From positions 1-43,096 of the forward strand of contig JALEZJ010000115.1 of assembly GCA_022772985.1 (NCBI GenBank): a stretch of 43,096 bases of DNA, written 5' to 3'. The translations under genes were made by a program, and so were the position numbers. Below, one piece after another: positions 3 to 34,725 of this stretch. This DNA is from Erysipelotrichaceae bacterium. GTDB lineage: Bacteria; Bacillota_I; Bacilli_A; RF39; UBA660. The notes below the pieces were generated by a model, which saw only the letters and a list, made by a program, of their open reading frames with translations, had not been told where the DNA came from and did not search any database. Each line of letters starts with the position of its first letter. Position 1 is the stretch's first letter.

Positions 3-221
3 AGCCTCTCAGTATCAAAGTTGGTTCAACAATTAAAAGGAAAAACATCAAGAAAATTACAAATGGAATACGTTGAATTAAAAAGAAAGTATTGGGGACA
101 GCATTTATGGGCAACTGGATATTTTTGTAGAAGTGTGGGTATTGTAACAAAAGAAATAATAAAAGATTATATTGAAAATCAAATAGATGAATATGATGAA
201 AACTTTAAAATTATAGGCTAA
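3..221 (+). CDS. tnpA: IS200/IS605-family transposase TnpA, C-terminal part (5' end outside the window)
   Basis: Open reading frame continues to the window edge (SLSVSKLVQQLKGKTSRKLQ...WGQHLWATGYFCRSVGIVTKEIIKDYIENQ); this resembles the C-terminus of IS200-type Y1 transposases (LvqxlKGkss...HlWaxGYfxxsvG). Confidence 0.85.
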   Translation, partial: SLSVSKLVQQLKGKTSRKLQMEYVELKRKYWGQHLWATGYFCRSVGIVTKEIIKDYIENQIDEYDENFKIIG

Positions 222-279: not shown

Positions 280-609
280 TGGTTGACAAAATATAGAAGA
301 GTAATTTTTGATAATTTTGTTGATAGAATTTTGGTTCAAACTTTGTGAATCAATATATAGGTTGGTTGTGTCTTCGGGATAAAAAGAAATTTTGAGGTGG
401 AATATAGAGTGTAGATTTTTTAATAGCATAGTTTGGTAAAAATAGTAATGAATGCAAACATCAAATCGAAGATTATGTCAGAAGAAATCAAGAGAAGGGG
501 TATATCTAAATTCATAGGGTACAATTAAAATTTTTGACAATCATTAAATAAACTTAATTTTTACTGTATATTGAGAATTTGTATTAAAAATTGCTAATTT
601 AAAAGTTAT

Positions 610-637
610 TATTCATGTTTCACGTGAAACATGAATA
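610..637. promoter_or_regulatory. parS: parS site 1 (ParB/Spo0J binding), in a 28-bp perfect palindrome
   Basis: tattcaTGTTTCACGTGAAACAtgaata; core 616-631 matches the canonical parS 16-mer. Confidence 0.95.
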
Positions 638-638
638 G

Positions 639-647
639 TTTTCCACA
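639..647 (+). promoter_or_regulatory. DnaA-box-like 9-mer next to parS 1
   Basis: ttttccaca, one mismatch from TTATCCACA. Confidence 0.6.
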
Positions 648-843
648 GTATTTTAATATCATATAATGATAGGATTTGGGTGCTGTTTATAGACTCTATA
701 TGTAATAAAGGATTTGTGAATATATATATTTAGTAGTTTCAACAGTGTGAAATATTAGCGAATAGTAAAATATTTTAATAATTACGTAATAATTTGTAAA
801 TAATATTATATTAACTTAATATTTTACAATAGTTTATAAGTTT

Positions 844-863
844 TATAGAAAAATTTTTTTAAA
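844..863 (+). repeat. Direct repeat copy A (20-mer) in the parS region
   Basis: tatagaaaaatttttttaaa; identical copy at 1408-1427. Confidence 0.7.
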
Positions 864-882
864 ATTAGGAAAATACCAATCA

Positions 883-898
883 TGTTTCACGTGAAACA
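883..898. promoter_or_regulatory. parS: parS site 2
   Basis: Perfect TGTTTCACGTGAAACA. Confidence 0.95.
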
Positions 899-901
899 TA
901 G

Positions 902-910
902 ATTTCCACA
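902..910 (+). promoter_or_regulatory. DnaA-box-like 9-mer next to parS 2
   Basis: atttccaca. Confidence 0.5.
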
Positions 911-1344
911 GTTTAAGTTAATTATATATTGTTGGTTTTTGTAATAGATTATTAACAAATAAATATGGTTTTATTTATTATTTATTTAAATATAATGAAG
1001 TTTTATTATAAAAATTTACTAAATCTTATAAAGAATCACCAATTTTCTCACTATATTTTATATCATGAAGTGATCTTTGTAACAGGAAAAGATATATTTA
1101 TGTTAGTAATAGTATGCGTTTTTTTTAACAATTTGTAATAATCATATAGAAGTAGAAGTTTTAATGCATTTTAGATTAGTTTTTTACTTTGATAGTAGTA
1201 ATAAGTATAATTGTTTTTATATTGTTGGAATTTTATTTTATCATTTATAAATCTAGTTTTCATTCATTCTTTTTTTGTTTGGAAATTATTAAAACTTTAT
1301 TTTATAGAAGATATTAAATTTATAATTAATATTAATATGTGTTA

Positions 1345-1360
1345 TGTTTCACGTGAAACA
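1345..1360. promoter_or_regulatory. parS: parS site 3
   Basis: Perfect TGTTTCACGTGAAACA. Confidence 0.95.
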
Positions 1361-1363
1361 TAG

Positions 1364-1372
1364 ATTTCCACA
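1364..1372 (+). promoter_or_regulatory. DnaA-box-like 9-mer next to parS 3
   Basis: atttccaca. Confidence 0.5.
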
Positions 1373-1407
1373 ATAGTTGATATGTGCTTACTAATGATGA
1401 AAATATC

Positions 1408-1427
1408 TATAGAAAAATTTTTTTAAA
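1408..1427 (+). repeat. Direct repeat copy B (20-mer) in the parS region
   Basis: tatagaaaaatttttttaaa, identical to 844-863. Confidence 0.7.
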
Positions 1428-1710
1428 TATTATATTTTTTATAATCAGTAAAGAATTTATTCTATATAAATTACAGAATAAAAATAATTTTACGGGTGTA
1501 TTAAACTTTATTATTCATTTATTTTTTTATGCGTTATTATCAATTTAATGATAATTAAATGGTAATTTGTTTATAAATTTTTGTTGGGATGATATGATAC
1601 TTTTAGATGATAGTTAAAAAATAAATTTGTAAATGTATAGGATTATAATAATCTTATTGTATTTTTTTATTGAAATATAGAAAAAAAGTTATTTTTATGC
1701 CTATTTTTTA

Positions 1711-1726
1711 TGTTTCACGTGAAACA
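1711..1726. promoter_or_regulatory. parS: parS site 4
   Basis: Perfect TGTTTCACGTGAAACA. Confidence 0.95.
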
Positions 1727-1730
1727 TAAG

Positions 1731-1739
1731 TTTTCCACA
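1731..1739 (+). promoter_or_regulatory. DnaA-box-like 9-mer next to parS 4
   Basis: ttttccaca, one mismatch from TTATCCACA. Confidence 0.6.
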
Positions 1740-1931
1740 ATTGTTTAACAAATAATATATATAATCTTTTTATTAAATAATTTTATGTTTTTGAAATTGA
1801 TTAGTATCGTTTTTATCTAATTTTGATATAGTAGATTCAATAAGTTTGAAATTAGTGAATTTTATTTAAATAATTACATATTTTTTGAATATTTTATTGC
1901 TTTTTTTTATATATTATTATATAATTTTATT

Positions 1932-2010
1932 GATGCAATAGTATTATTTTGGAATCAAGTCAGGATCGGGAGATAGCAGCTTTAACACAATATACTATGT
2001 GCATCTTTTT
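1932..2010 (+). ncRNA. ffs: Bacterial small SRP RNA (4.5S / scRNA type)
   Basis: Core GTCAGGATCGGGAGATAGCAGC aligns with the 4.5S core GTCAGGTCCGGAAGGAAGCAGC; terminal stem gatgca/atagta pairs with tactat-g-tgcatc, followed by a T run; lies directly upstream of dnaX as in Bacillus. Confidence 0.87.
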
Positions 2011-2044
2011 TTCAAACATTTGTTTGTATGTCATTAAATTTTTA

Positions 2045-2106: not shown

Positions 2107-3798
2107 GTGAGTTATTTGGCTTTATATCGAAAGTATCGACCTAATAATTTTAATGATTTAGTTGGTCAGTCTGAAATTGTTGATATTATAAGAAATGAAA
2201 TTTTAAATGATAAAATATCACATGCTTATTTATTTTCTGGACCTCGTGGTACTGGTAAGACTTCTACAGCAAAAATTATTGCACGTATGATTAATTGTAG
2301 TAATTTAGGGAAAGATGGAGTTCCATGTGGTAAATGTGTAAGTTGTTTGAATTTTAATAATAATAGTGATATTGTAGAAATTGATGCAGCTTCTAATAAT
2401 GGAGTAGATGAGATTCGTGAGCTTAGAGATAAAGTCAATTTGGTTCCAACTTTTGGAAAATATAAAATTTATATTATTGATGAAGTTCATATGTTGACAA
2501 CTCAAGCTTTTAATGCTTTGTTGAAAACTTTAGAGGAACCTCCTTCGCATGCTATTTTTATTTTAGCAACAACAGAGTTTTATAAAATTCCCATTACGGT
2601 AGTTTCTCGTTGTCAAAAGTTTCAATTTTTGAAATTTTCTAATGAAGAAATTGTAAAAAAATTGATAGAAATTTCTTCTAAGGAGTCAATTGATGTTGGG
2701 GCGGATGTTTTATTTGAAATTGCTCGATTATCTGATGGTGGGTTGAGAGATGCAATTAATATGCTTGATCAATTATCTTCTTTTAAAGGGCAATTATTAA
2801 CTATTCAGGATGTTTATAAACTTAATGGGGTAATTTCTTATGAAGAATTTAGGAATTTATTAAAATATATTTATTCTAATAAAATAGTTGATATTATAGA
2901 ATTTTTAGATAATGTTGATAGAAATGGAAAAAGCTTTGATAGATTTATTGAAGATTTGCTTAACTTTATGAAAGAAATTTTAATTTACAAAAATACATCT
3001 ATTTTTAATTCTAGTATTGTGGAAAAAAATGAGGCATTAGTTGAGTTATCTAGTATTTTTTCAGAACAGGTGTTATATAATTTTATTATTTCTTTGAATG
3101 AATTATCTTTTAGAATAAAAAATTCTTCTTTTGCAAAAATATTGTTGACTGCAGAATTTATAAAATTTTCTAATCAATTAGTTGAATCCAATTTTTCTAT
3201 CATTGAAAGTGAGGAAAAAAAGTTAAATTATCAAGAGAGTAACTGTAATTTTGATAATAAAATTAATGATAATAAATCAGAAATTAACAAATTGAAAACT
3301 AATAGTTTTTTTTATATGACTGATAAATTAAAAAAAATTAGGATTAATAATACTTTTGCTACTGCTTCTAAATCTAATAAACAAAAATTTAAAAGTAAAT
3401 GGGATTTTGTAAAGGAAAAATTATCAAATGATTCTAATTATTTAGCAATTGCAGGCATGATGAATGATGTTGAAATCTTAGTAGTAGGAGAAGAAAATGT
3501 TATTTTTCTTGCTCAGTATGATTCTTTGTTGGAACGATTATTTTCACAAGTTCTTTTGATAGAGCAATTGTTATTTGAAGTATTTAATATTCCATATAAG
3601 GTGGTTTTTTTATTAGAAGATGAATGGAATTTTGAAAGAGAAAATTATATTTTAAATCTTAAATCAGGAAAAAAATATGTTTATTTGGATGAAAAATCTA
3701 GTGATAAAAATGAAATGATTGATTCTTTTACTAATACAGATAATGATATTGATAAAATTGTTTCTATTTTAGGGTCGGATGTTATTTCATATGAATAA
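2107..3798 (+). CDS. dnaX: DNA polymerase III subunit gamma/tau
   Basis: YLALYRKYRPNNFNDLVGQ, Walker A GPRGTGKTS, Cys zinc motif, DEVHML, SRCQKF. Confidence 0.97.
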   Translation: MSYLALYRKYRPNNFNDLVGQSEIVDIIRNEILNDKISHAYLFSGPRGTGKTSTAKIIARMINCSNLGKDGVPCGKCVSCLNFNNNSDIVEIDAASNNGVDEIRELRDKVNLVPTFGKYKIYIIDEVHMLTTQAFNALLKTLEEPPSHAIFILATTEFYKIPITVVSRCQKFQFLKFSNEEIVKKLIEISSKESIDVGADVLFEIARLSDGGLRDAINMLDQLSSFKGQLLTIQDVYKLNGVISYEEFRNLLKYIYSNKIVDIIEFLDNVDRNGKSFDRFIEDLLNFMKEILIYKNTSIFNSSIVEKNEALVELSSIFSEQVLYNFIISLNELSFRIKNSSFAKILLTAEFIKFSNQLVESNFSIIESEEKKLNYQESNCNFDNKINDNKSEINKLKTNSFFYMTDKLKKIRINNTFATASKSNKQKFKSKWDFVKEKLSNDSNYLAIAGMMNDVEILVVGEENVIFLAQYDSLLERLFSQVLLIEQLLFEVFNIPYKVVFLLEDEWNFERENYILNLKSGKKYVYLDEKSSDKNEMIDSFTNTDNDIDKIVSILGSDVISYE

Positions 3799-3807
3799 AA
3801 AGAGAGG

Positions 3808-4122
3808 ATGATAAAATTGAATATGAATATACAAAATTTAATGCGACAAGCACAAAAAATGCAAAAAGATTTACAAAAAGTACAGGATGAATTAAAAAAT
3901 ACAGTTTATGAGGGGAAGTCTTCTTTGGTTCTTGTTACTCTTAATGGTAATAAAGATGTTTTGAGTGTAAAAATTAATGTTGATGAATCTTTTCAAAAAG
4001 AGGATATTGAATTGTTAGAAGATATGTTTATTGTTGCTTTTAATGATGCTTCTAAAAAAGTAGAAGAAGATAAAGAGAAAAAAATGGGAAAATATGGTCA
4101 AGGTTTAGCAGGTTTGATGTGA
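3808..4122 (+). CDS. ebfC: YbaB/EbfC family nucleoid-associated protein
   Basis: NMQNLMRQAQKMQKDLQKVQDEL and position between dnaX and recR. Confidence 0.93.
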   Translation: MIKLNMNIQNLMRQAQKMQKDLQKVQDELKNTVYEGKSSLVLVTLNGNKDVLSVKINVDESFQKEDIELLEDMFIVAFNDASKKVEEDKEKKMGKYGQGLAGLM

Positions 4123-4123
4123 T

Positions 4124-4720
4124 ATGTTTCCTAGTAGTTTGAAAAAATTAATTGATAATTTTAGAATGTTGCCTGGTATTGGTGGGAAGACAGCTGAGCG
4201 TTTAGCATTTTCTATGTTGGAATTTGATAAAAATAATTTGACTAGTTTTGCTAATGCTATTCTTGAAGTTCGGGATCATATTGGTCATTGTAAAGTTTGT
4301 GGTAATATTTCTGAAGGTGATTTGTGTTCTATTTGTTCTAATTCTGATAGAGATTTTTCTACTATTTTTGTAGTTGAAAGACCTAAGGATATCATTTTGT
4401 TTGAGAAATTGGGAGTTTATAAGGGAATTTATCATGTATTAAATGGATTGATTTCTCCTTTAGATGGAATTGGGCCAGATGAGATTGAAATTTCTAGTTT
4501 GTTATCTAGAATAAATAATAGTGATGTTCAAGAGGTTATTTTGGCGTTGAAACCTAGTATAGAAGGTGAAACGACAATGCAGTATATCAAAAAAATTTTA
4601 TCTGATAAAAATATTAAAGTAACTAAGATTGCAACTGGTGTTCCTATTGGTACAGATATGGAGTATATTGATTCTCTTACTTTGGAATTAGCGATTGATG
4701 AGAGAAAAAATATGAATTAA
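4124..4720 (+). CDS. recR: Recombination mediator RecR
   Basis: LPGIGGKTAERLAF, CxxC...CxxC zinc finger, Toprim VVERPKDI, IATGVPIGTDMEYIDSLTL. Confidence 0.97.
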   Translation: MFPSSLKKLIDNFRMLPGIGGKTAERLAFSMLEFDKNNLTSFANAILEVRDHIGHCKVCGNISEGDLCSICSNSDRDFSTIFVVERPKDIILFEKLGVYKGIYHVLNGLISPLDGIGPDEIEISSLLSRINNSDVQEVILALKPSIEGETTMQYIKKILSDKNIKVTKIATGVPIGTDMEYIDSLTLELAIDERKNMN

Positions 4721-5930: not shown

Positions 5931-6693
5931 AGTTTATTTTGAATATAACCACTCTACAGCTTTTTTTAAAAATAAGGATTTGAATTTAAAAAAAGGTTTA
6001 ACAGTACTTGTTAATACTGAGCGTGGTATACAATTTGGTAAGGTTAGTCAAATTATTTCGTCAATTGAAGATTTTAAAGATGTTGATTTATATGATGTTG
6101 TACGAATTTCTACTAAGAAAGATTATTTTCATTATTTAGAGAATATAAAATTGGCACAAGAAGCTGTTATAAAATGTAAGGAACTTGTAAAAAAGAATAA
6201 TTTAAATATGACTATTTTAGATGGTAATTATAATTTTGAACGAACGCAGTTATTATTTCGATTTGTGGCAGATGAGAGAGTGGATTTTAGACAATTGGCG
6301 CGGGAATTGGGTTCTATTTTTCGAACTAGAATTGAACTTCGTCAAATTGGAATACGTGATAAGGCAAAAGAAATTGGTGGAATTGGACCATGTGGAAGAT
6401 TGCTTTGTTGTAGTAGTTTTTTGACTAATTTTGATAGTGTGACAATTAATATGGCAAAGAATCAACAAGTTTCTCTTAATCCTTCTAAGATTAATGGAGT
6501 TTGTGGAAGATTGCTTTGTTGTTTAAAGTATGAAAATGATTCTTATACTGAATTCAAAAAAGAAATTCCTAAAATTGGGGAAAATTTAGAAACTCAATAT
6601 GGTAGCGGCAAAGTTATTTCTATTAATGTATTAAAGAAAACTTATATTTTGGAATTGGAGAATAAGACAAAATTGGAAGTGAAATTAGATTGA
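5917..6693 (+). CDS. ricT: RicT/YaaT, PSP1 domain protein
   Basis: DERVDFRQLARELGSIFRTRIELRQIGIRDKAKEIGGIGPCGRLLCC...VCGRLLCCLKYE. ORF track starts at 5908; ATG at 5917 likely. Confidence 0.93.
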   Translation: MNIVEVYFEYNHSTAFFKNKDLNLKKGLTVLVNTERGIQFGKVSQIISSIEDFKDVDLYDVVRISTKKDYFHYLENIKLAQEAVIKCKELVKKNNLNMTILDGNYNFERTQLLFRFVADERVDFRQLARELGSIFRTRIELRQIGIRDKAKEIGGIGPCGRLLCCSSFLTNFDSVTINMAKNQQVSLNPSKINGVCGRLLCCLKYENDSYTEFKKEIPKIGENLETQYGSGKVISINVLKKTYILELENKTKLEVKLD

Positions 6694-7409
6694 AAGTAAA
6701 GAATAGGCTCTTAGATACGGATGCTATTATCTATCAAAATGATGATTGGTTTAAATTTTCATTAGATTCTGTATTGCTTGCTAATTTTGTAACTTTGAAT
6801 TTGCGTAGTAAAAAGATTATTGATCTTGCAACGGGAAATGCTCCGATTCCAATTTTACTTACTTTTAGGACAAATGCTTTTATTTATGGAGTAGAGTATC
6901 AAAGTTGTGTTTATCAATTAGGGGTAGATTCTGTATTAGAAAATAAAATAGAGGATCGTGTAATTTTAATTAATGATGATGTTAGAAATTTGAAACAACG
7001 TTTTGCTGGTGATAGTTTTGATGTTGTGACATGTAATCCACCTTATTTTAAGGTTAATAATGTAGATTATTTTAATCATAATTATGTTAAATCTTTGGCA
7101 AGGCATGAAATTACTTTGACTTTGGATGATGTGTTAATTCAAGCTAGTTATTTGTTAAAAAATGGTGGTATTTTTGCAATGATACATAGGACAGATCGTT
7201 TTGTAGAAATATTAGAAAAAATGAGAAAATATCATATTGAACCCAAACGTATTCAATTTATATATCCTAAGAAAGGAAGAAATAGTGATTTGGTTCTAAT
7301 AGAGGGGATTAAAAATGGTAAAGTAGGTTTGAAGTTATTATCTCCTTTAGTAGTTCATAAGGAAGATAATAATTATACAGATGAGATATTGGAAATGTTA
7401 AAATTTTAG
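6690..7409 (+). CDS. tRNA1(Val) (adenine-N6)-methyltransferase-like (YabB/TrmN6)
   Basis: SAM-binding LATGNAPIPILL and CNPPYF motif; TTG start overlaps the ricT stop. Confidence 0.85.
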   Translation: MKVKNRLLDTDAIIYQNDDWFKFSLDSVLLANFVTLNLRSKKIIDLATGNAPIPILLTFRTNAFIYGVEYQSCVYQLGVDSVLENKIEDRVILINDDVRNLKQRFAGDSFDVVTCNPPYFKVNNVDYFNHNYVKSLARHEITLTLDDVLIQASYLLKNGGIFAMIHRTDRFVEILEKMRKYHIEPKRIQFIYPKKGRNSDLVLIEGIKNGKVGLKLLSPLVVHKEDNNYTDEILEMLKF

Positions 7410-33874: not shown

Positions 33875-34725
33875 GGTGTACCATGTATGGCATATATCTA
33901 GTTGATGAAAGTCTAATACATGTGATGAAGTGTTAGGAAAGCAGATAGTATCAGTCGTAAGACTTGGGGCCAAAGGGAGTGTGAAACAGCATTATGGTTA
34001 ACGAACAGAAATTTACTATAAGGCTGTATAAATGTATAAGGTTGCTTAACAAACTAAAGTCTAAAAAATATAGGAACTTTATGTAGTAAAGTAGGTAATT
34101 AATCGAGGAAAGATATATGTTTTATCGTGAGTGGTCTGTCAAACAAGTAAGTACAAGTAAATAATACATCAATTGTTAAAGTTGGTTGAACAAGGATTAT
34201 TGCAAGAAATTGGCAAAGGGGCGTAGTACTAGAAAAATCGGAATACCAAGTGTAATAGATAGTGTATTATAGCAAGTAATTGTACAAGTATTAACACTAA
34301 TTTATGAAAAACAATTTTCCGATAATTCTTACTGGTTTAGACAATGTTGTGAGTAGGCAGTTATTAAATTCTTAGAGTTCTTTAATAATGGTTATGATTG
34401 GATAGTAGATATTGATTTATAATTTTTTTCGATGAAATAAATCAAGATAAGTTAATGTCAATTATCTATAGACCATAAAGGATGATGATGTTATTTCACT
34501 ATAAGGAAGTTTTTACAAAGTAGAGTAATGAAAAGTATCACCACTTTTATAATTGAGAAATTAGGATTAAAAGTGAATGTAAAAAAGTAAAGTGGTAAGG
34601 TCCAATCAAATAAAATATTTGGAATTTGGGTTTTACAAGGAAGTTAATCAAAATGTATAAAGATTCAAATCGCATATAAAATCGATTGAGAAGTTTAAAA
34701 AATATGGTATTGAATCAGATGAATT
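33875..34725 (+). pseudogene. Degenerate group II intron with LtrA-type reverse transcriptase remnant
   Basis: Intron RNA-like 5' stretch (gtgttaggaaagcag...cagtcgtaagacttggggccaaagggagtgtgaaacagcatt...gttaacgaa); then RKIGIPSVIDSVL*QVIVQVLTLIYEKQFSDNSYWFR...AVIKFLEFFNNGYDWIVDIDL* with in-frame stops, and later KLGLKVNVKK...GFYKEV pieces after frameshifts. Confidence 0.85.

Follow-up and report, generated by a model that had tools for sequence, protein, structure and literature searches.

The window, by which we mean the whole 43,096-nucleotide stretch of DNA analysed here, comes from a 1.75 Mb genome in 210 contigs (G000), and its first part holds a non-coding stretch of approximately 1.7 kb, very rich in A and T, in which all of its parS sites are found. 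The preliminary description had called this stretch non-coding, as is borne out by its position between the tail of a transposase gene (ending at about 221) and the small SRP RNA, after which dnaX, ybaB/ebfC and recR follow. The features of the region are:

3..221 (+), IS200-type transposase gene, 3' end only, truncated where the contig begins (Pfam Y1_Tnp PF01797, E 1e-18)
616..631 (no strand), parS 1, TGTTTCACGTGAAACA, exact match
639..647 (+), predicted DnaA box 1, TTTTCCACA, 7 nt from parS, the same 9-mer as the oriC boxes
879..1372 (+), segment running from the second parS-box unit to the third, with a copy on contig C141 at 6279-6766 (97.4% identity, 494 columns)
883..898 (no strand), parS 2, exact match
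902..910 (+), predicted DnaA box 2, ATTTCCACA, 3 nt from parS, a variant also found at oriC of the congeners G002, G004 and G005
1345..1360 (no strand), parS 3, exact match
1364..1372 (+), predicted DnaA box 3, ATTTCCACA, 3 nt from parS, from a motif search
1711..1726 (no strand), parS 4, exact match
1731..1739 (+), predicted DnaA box 4, TTTTCCACA, 4 nt from parS, from a motif search
1922..2021 (+), small SRP RNA (4.5S/ffs; Rfam RF00169, 46.9 bits), overlapping a block of 79-86% identity common to congeners
2107..3798 (+), dnaX, DNA polymerase III gamma/tau (NCBIfam NF004046, above cut-off)
3808..4122 (+), ybaB/ebfC, nucleoid-associated protein (TIGR00103, above cut-off)
4124..4720 (+), recR (TIGR00615, above cut-off)

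Much further along the window, at 33951-34120 (+), there is also a match to the Group II intron D1-D4-3 RNA (Rfam RF02001, 79.7 bits).

Beyond the four exact parS 16-mers, no further site was found in the 43 kb at up to three mismatches; shuffled versions of the window contained a mean of 0.23 parS, and none of 100 shuffles reached four. All four sites have (A/T)TTTCCACA downstream on the same strand, with TTTCCACA starting at 640, 903, 1365 and 1732 (always +), and this motif occurs at only three other places in the window. An exact-match search thus confirms the initial observation of four perfect parS sites, each with a same-strand motif 3-7 nt downstream. That motif had been described as resembling a DnaA box, and it proves to match the genome's own boxes around dnaA/dnaN (contig C140), where TTTTCCACA is present six times and TTATCCACA once. 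TTTTCCACA is the dominant oriC box in G000 and several congeners, ATTTCCACA is present at the origins of G002, G004 and G005, ATATCCACA and GTTTCCACA are among the further variants seen at oriC, and the spectrum of variants beside parS is similar to that at oriC. Judged by its sequence, the motif beside parS is the predicted DnaA box of this organism, whose DnaA is intact and possesses the C-terminal DNA-binding domain (Bac_DnaA_C).

Pattern searches of the whole source genome bring the number of parS sites to six, the remaining two lying on C141, downstream of recF-gyrB-gyrA. Both carry TAGATTTCCACA, so that a box stands beside every one of the six. The near-identity of the segment spanning units 2 and 3 to its copy on C141 shows that units were copied by segmental duplication; the four units of the window are therefore not fully independent, and part of the repetition within the genome is unit duplication. 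C141 ends in sequence that resembles the beginning of an IS200-type element, and the window opens with the tail of one; the simplest order is therefore gyrA, two units, IS200, four units, SRP RNA, dnaX, with a presumed join between the two contigs. We also observed, in the stretch L012:1396-5957 of C141, that gyrB shares 90.8% identity with its G103 counterpart and only 69% with the congener genes, while the adjacent recF, like dnaX, has its nearest matches among congeners; these identities point to horizontal replacement of gyrB (and gyrA) or to a chimeric C141.

The protein partners expected of a chromosomal centromere are encoded in the same genome. The parS site is the 16-bp palindrome TGTTNCACGTGNAACA, its six copies lie in a gap that adjoins recF-gyrB-gyrA, and in G002, where one contig spans the array, the array is approximately 9 kb from dnaA. 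The genes for ParA and ParB are adjacent on contig C121, and ParB has both ParB_N and HTH_ParB domains, together with (as read from an alignment, in Caulobacter ParB numbering) the parS-type residues R173 and G201; arginine and glycine at these positions of Caulobacter ParB specify parS (PMC7383237).

Comparison with congeners shows that four of the six genus members examined retain the pairing. Sites with NNNTCCACA within a few nucleotides account for 6/6 parS in G000, 4/4 in G002, 5/6 in G004 and 4/4 in G005, such that the box is kept at 19 of 20 parS in four species whose other non-coding DNA is largely unalignable, and whose DnaX proteins are distant (identity among congeners is only 57-59%, and 58-59% between G000 and either G002 or G005). 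BLAST alignments between congener gaps consist mainly of the SRP RNA and of the parS-box units, each 30-40 bp long, alongside a few blocks of weaker similarity. Boxes were permuted within the gyrA-dnaX gap using the narrower pattern T(A/T)TCCACA (6, 3, 5 and 3 in G000, G002, G004 and G005, respectively): none of 200,000 permutations reached 6/6 in G000, and p was at most 3.5e-5 for each of the four composite genomes. Chance pairing is rejected as the main reading. In the gaps of these four congeners 19 boxes lie near parS and 5 far from it, and boxes within 12 nt of parS are approximately 60 times denser than in the rest of the gaps. G003 and G006 have parS arrays and no DnaA box beside parS. 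The prediction that the unit would be conserved between diverged flanks therefore holds for G002, G004 and G005, in which nearly all of the gap but the SRP RNA has changed, and fails for G003 and G006; likewise, relatives that keep parS without the box, which had been named as the observation that would count against the idea, are found in these two genomes and in most genera.

On a wider scale, we analysed the gap at 114 gyrA-dnaX loci, mostly one per genus, and found 416 parS, usually 2-6 and at most 11 per gap. Clustering of parS, which had been thought unusual, is consequently the norm for this gap in the window genome's family, whose members appear to be uncultured gut Bacilli or Mollicutes-like bacteria, probably of the GTDB order RF39. 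Within this even, one-per-genus sample, boxes near parS (12 in number) are only about 2-fold denser than elsewhere in the gap, and so modest an enrichment implies that the composite unit is lineage-specific. Of 152 genera, about a dozen have repeated parS-box units, with the box facing either way: units with the box pointing away from parS, as in the window, are found in 13 of 390 family genomes (8 genera, 39 sites), and the opposite orientation, scored as a control, in 14 of 390 (11 genera, 28 sites). Clean away-pointing arrays are present in genus g157 (G268 4/4, G163 3/3), in G118 (3/3) and in G386 (4/4, on the same contig as L099), and G315 (L051/L130), which was reached by a separate scan, also has units; G386 and G315 combine parS, DnaA box and Noc site. 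In other genera the box beside parS is TTATCCACA, a perfect DnaA box. Arrays with the box pointing toward parS were seen in G063, G106, G234, G235, G317, G389 and G398, with TTATCCACA abutting parS in G389. Box orientation is therefore uniform inside a genome and reversed in other genera, and since the control also gave repeated arrays we dropped the idea of a family-wide fixed geometry. When sites are pooled, 22 away-pointing boxes lie exactly 3 nt from the parS core, in a sample partly selected for the away pattern. Mapped on the DnaX tree, the distribution of the away-pointing composite takes about six changes to explain, from which it follows that modules arose or were lost repeatedly; this tree is preferred because the gyrB and gyrA of G000 look foreign and the GyrA tree probably misplaces that genome. 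A composite scan of all genomes returned 101 stretches spread over many phyla, mostly a single parS with a nearby box, and all stretches with two or more composite matches belong to the window genome's family, so we make no claim for a general bacterial feature. Four stretches (L053, L083, L106 and L121, mostly labelled Lachnospiraceae) have a single parS directly followed by TTTTCCACA in a near-identical context, CGATATTTATGTTTCACGTGAAACATTTTCCACAAGAT.

Many gaps in the family additionally contain Noc sites (ATTTCCCGGGAAAT), often interleaved with parS, and in some genera the distance between parS and Noc site is near-fixed, as in seven pairs in G020. Repeated parS-Noc pairs of near-fixed spacing were observed at L156 (G020), L268 (G133), L239 (G075), L157 (G019), L166 (G010) and L382 (G386). 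No ATTTCCCGGGAAAT was found in any gyrA-dnaX gap of the window genome's genus. The Noc homologues of this genus are 435-496 aa long (L301:1850-3199, L303:3954-5441 and L309:5917-7221, all on the minus strand); HTH_ParB was not detected in those of G000, G002 and G006, in which ParB_N is kept, the G000 protein has lost the GERR motif, and the gene still adjoins a gidB-type gene. Sites in the gap and a Noc with a helix-turn-helix, the combination that marks a Noc/NBS nucleoid occlusion array, are thus lacking in this genus, whose Noc has apparently degenerated or been repurposed. The Noc match of genus g157 is 74-75% identical to the intact G020 protein, and, since g157 combines this strong match with composite units, the composite can exist without loss of Noc.

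ParB loads at parS and spreads from it as a CTP-dependent sliding clamp. With this in mind, an explanation to which we give even chances is that the region is an origin-proximal chromosome centromere, a parS array in the gyrA-dnaX gap with a predicted DnaA box at each ParB nucleation site, where DnaA would modulate ParB loading. Several features of the sequence support it, namely the presence of both motifs, the identity of the box with the oriC box, the retention of the unit amid mostly diverged flanks, and the presence of ParA, of a ParB with a parS-type helix-turn-helix, and of DnaA. DnaA beside parS would most likely modulate the loading or sliding of ParB, thereby coupling origin segregation to DnaA. 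The few nucleotides between parS and box imply that DnaA on the box would have to touch or crowd the nucleating ParB dimer, with which it might compete or which it might help; box-bound DnaA would also be a one-sided roadblock to sliding clamps, and a DNA-bound protein is known to stop ParB from spreading in one direction (PMC7053999). In this way the level or nucleotide state of DnaA would affect how ParB and SMC are loaded and, through that, how origins segregate, as proposed for Caulobacter. Against this explanation stand the reversed box orientation in other genera, which suggests that no single stereospecific contact is conserved, as well as the absence of boxes in G003 and G006 and the mere 2-fold enrichment in the even genus sample.

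The two main rival explanations grant that the motif is a DnaA box and deny that its closeness to parS matters. It is fairly unlikely, in our view, that the boxes are a titration or reservoir cluster for DnaA near the origin, sharing with parS nothing more than a non-coding gap: the family gaps do hold 73 copies of T(A/T)TCCACA in 127 kb, approximately 10 times a hand estimate from base composition (about 7), and several gaps have boxes away from parS, yet such boxes are few in the composite congeners, the spacing is narrow (even allowing for the partly pattern-selected sample behind the 3-nt class), and six boxes are few for such a role. Duplication of an array in which one parS had by chance come to lie beside a box, carrying a functionless box along, is unlikely. 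Such hitchhiking agrees with the clear duplication of a segment holding two units, with tandem arrays that are nearly regular in other genera, and with an orientation fixed within genera and not between them. On the other hand, a 9-mer under no selection should decay, and the box is kept at nearly every parS of four species despite non-coding divergence; chance closeness alone, by a composition estimate, predicts fewer genera with such seeds.

Two other explanations concern which protein reads the motif. Seven of nine letters of TTTTCCACA match TGTTCCACG, a half of variant parS sites, and the motif could accordingly be a degenerate half-site for ParB; however, this 9-mer is also the box most often repeated around dnaA/dnaN, other genera carry the perfect DnaA box beside parS, and the letters that differ from parS (position 2 and the last base) follow the DnaA box, which is why we reject the half-site as the main reading and regard it as very improbable. 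We give equally little credence to a switch of the degenerate Noc homologue to TTTCCACA in place of its lost sites. Gaps free of Noc sites, homologues with no detectable helix-turn-helix and the missing GERR motif of G000 would fit a switch, but a protein without HTH_ParB would probably not read DNA, Noc sites and the box coexist in G386 and G315, and g157 has the box alongside its strong Noc match.

Several known systems bear on modulation of ParB loading by DnaA. In Caulobacter crescentus, DnaA binds at parS and influences how the centromere segregates (Mera et al. 2014, cited from the review PMC6399470), so the earlier assertion that parS sites are not joined to DnaA boxes overlooks a precedent. 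Predicted DnaA boxes lie at the chromosomal centromere of G000 as they do in that species, where the centromere is approximately 8 kb from ori and DnaA acts on segregation apart from replication; Caulobacter, however, is an alphaproteobacterium with one centromere locus, whereas here, in Bacilli, a box stands at each of six parS at short spacing. ParA, ParB, DnaA, the parS consensus and the closeness of parS to oriC are shared with the Soj/Spo0J system of Bacillus subtilis, which has about 10 parS loci, 8 of them on the oriC side (PMC6399470), and for which we found no repeated parS-box unit described in the literature. There, ParA regulates DnaA independently of parS location (PMC7614844), and by analogy this argues against our explanation, since such control needs no parS near oriC. 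At rctA/parS2 of Vibrio cholerae chromosome II a ParB site likewise binds a replication initiator (PMC6399470), although that initiator is RctB, titrated from the origin, and not DnaA. Finally, in Staphylococcus aureus the ParB-family protein Noc, which has a site next to dnaA, restrains replication initiation (PMC5540599), and interleaved parS, Noc sites and DnaA boxes are found in relatives of the window genome; the window genome's own genus differs in its gaps free of Noc sites and its Noc homologue without a detectable DNA-binding domain. In the open-licence literature searched we found neither a serial array of one box per parS kept under divergence nor the triple parS-DnaA-Noc modules of the relatives. 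DnaA at parS is thus already known from Caulobacter, and what is new, as far as that literature goes, is the serial, hard-wired version in Bacilli.

Coordination between replication start and origin segregation is an old open question in bacteria. The link between ParA and DnaA in B. subtilis needs no closeness of sites, whereas here a DnaA box lies a few bases from each ParB loading site, and segregation and the start of replication may be wired together at one spot. The array offers a compact substrate suited to reconstitution, in which two purified proteins and 60-bp DNA could ask whether DnaA gates the loading of ParB clamps. More tentatively, and with somewhat less than even confidence, the gyrA-dnaX gap of the family may be a combined control locus with one repeated module whose adjacent sites serve ParB, DnaA and, in many genera, Noc, integrating origin firing, segregation and division inhibition on a few hundred bases, with such modules having evolved repeatedly. 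The related parS-Noc-DnaA modules would in this way extend the question to the control of division.
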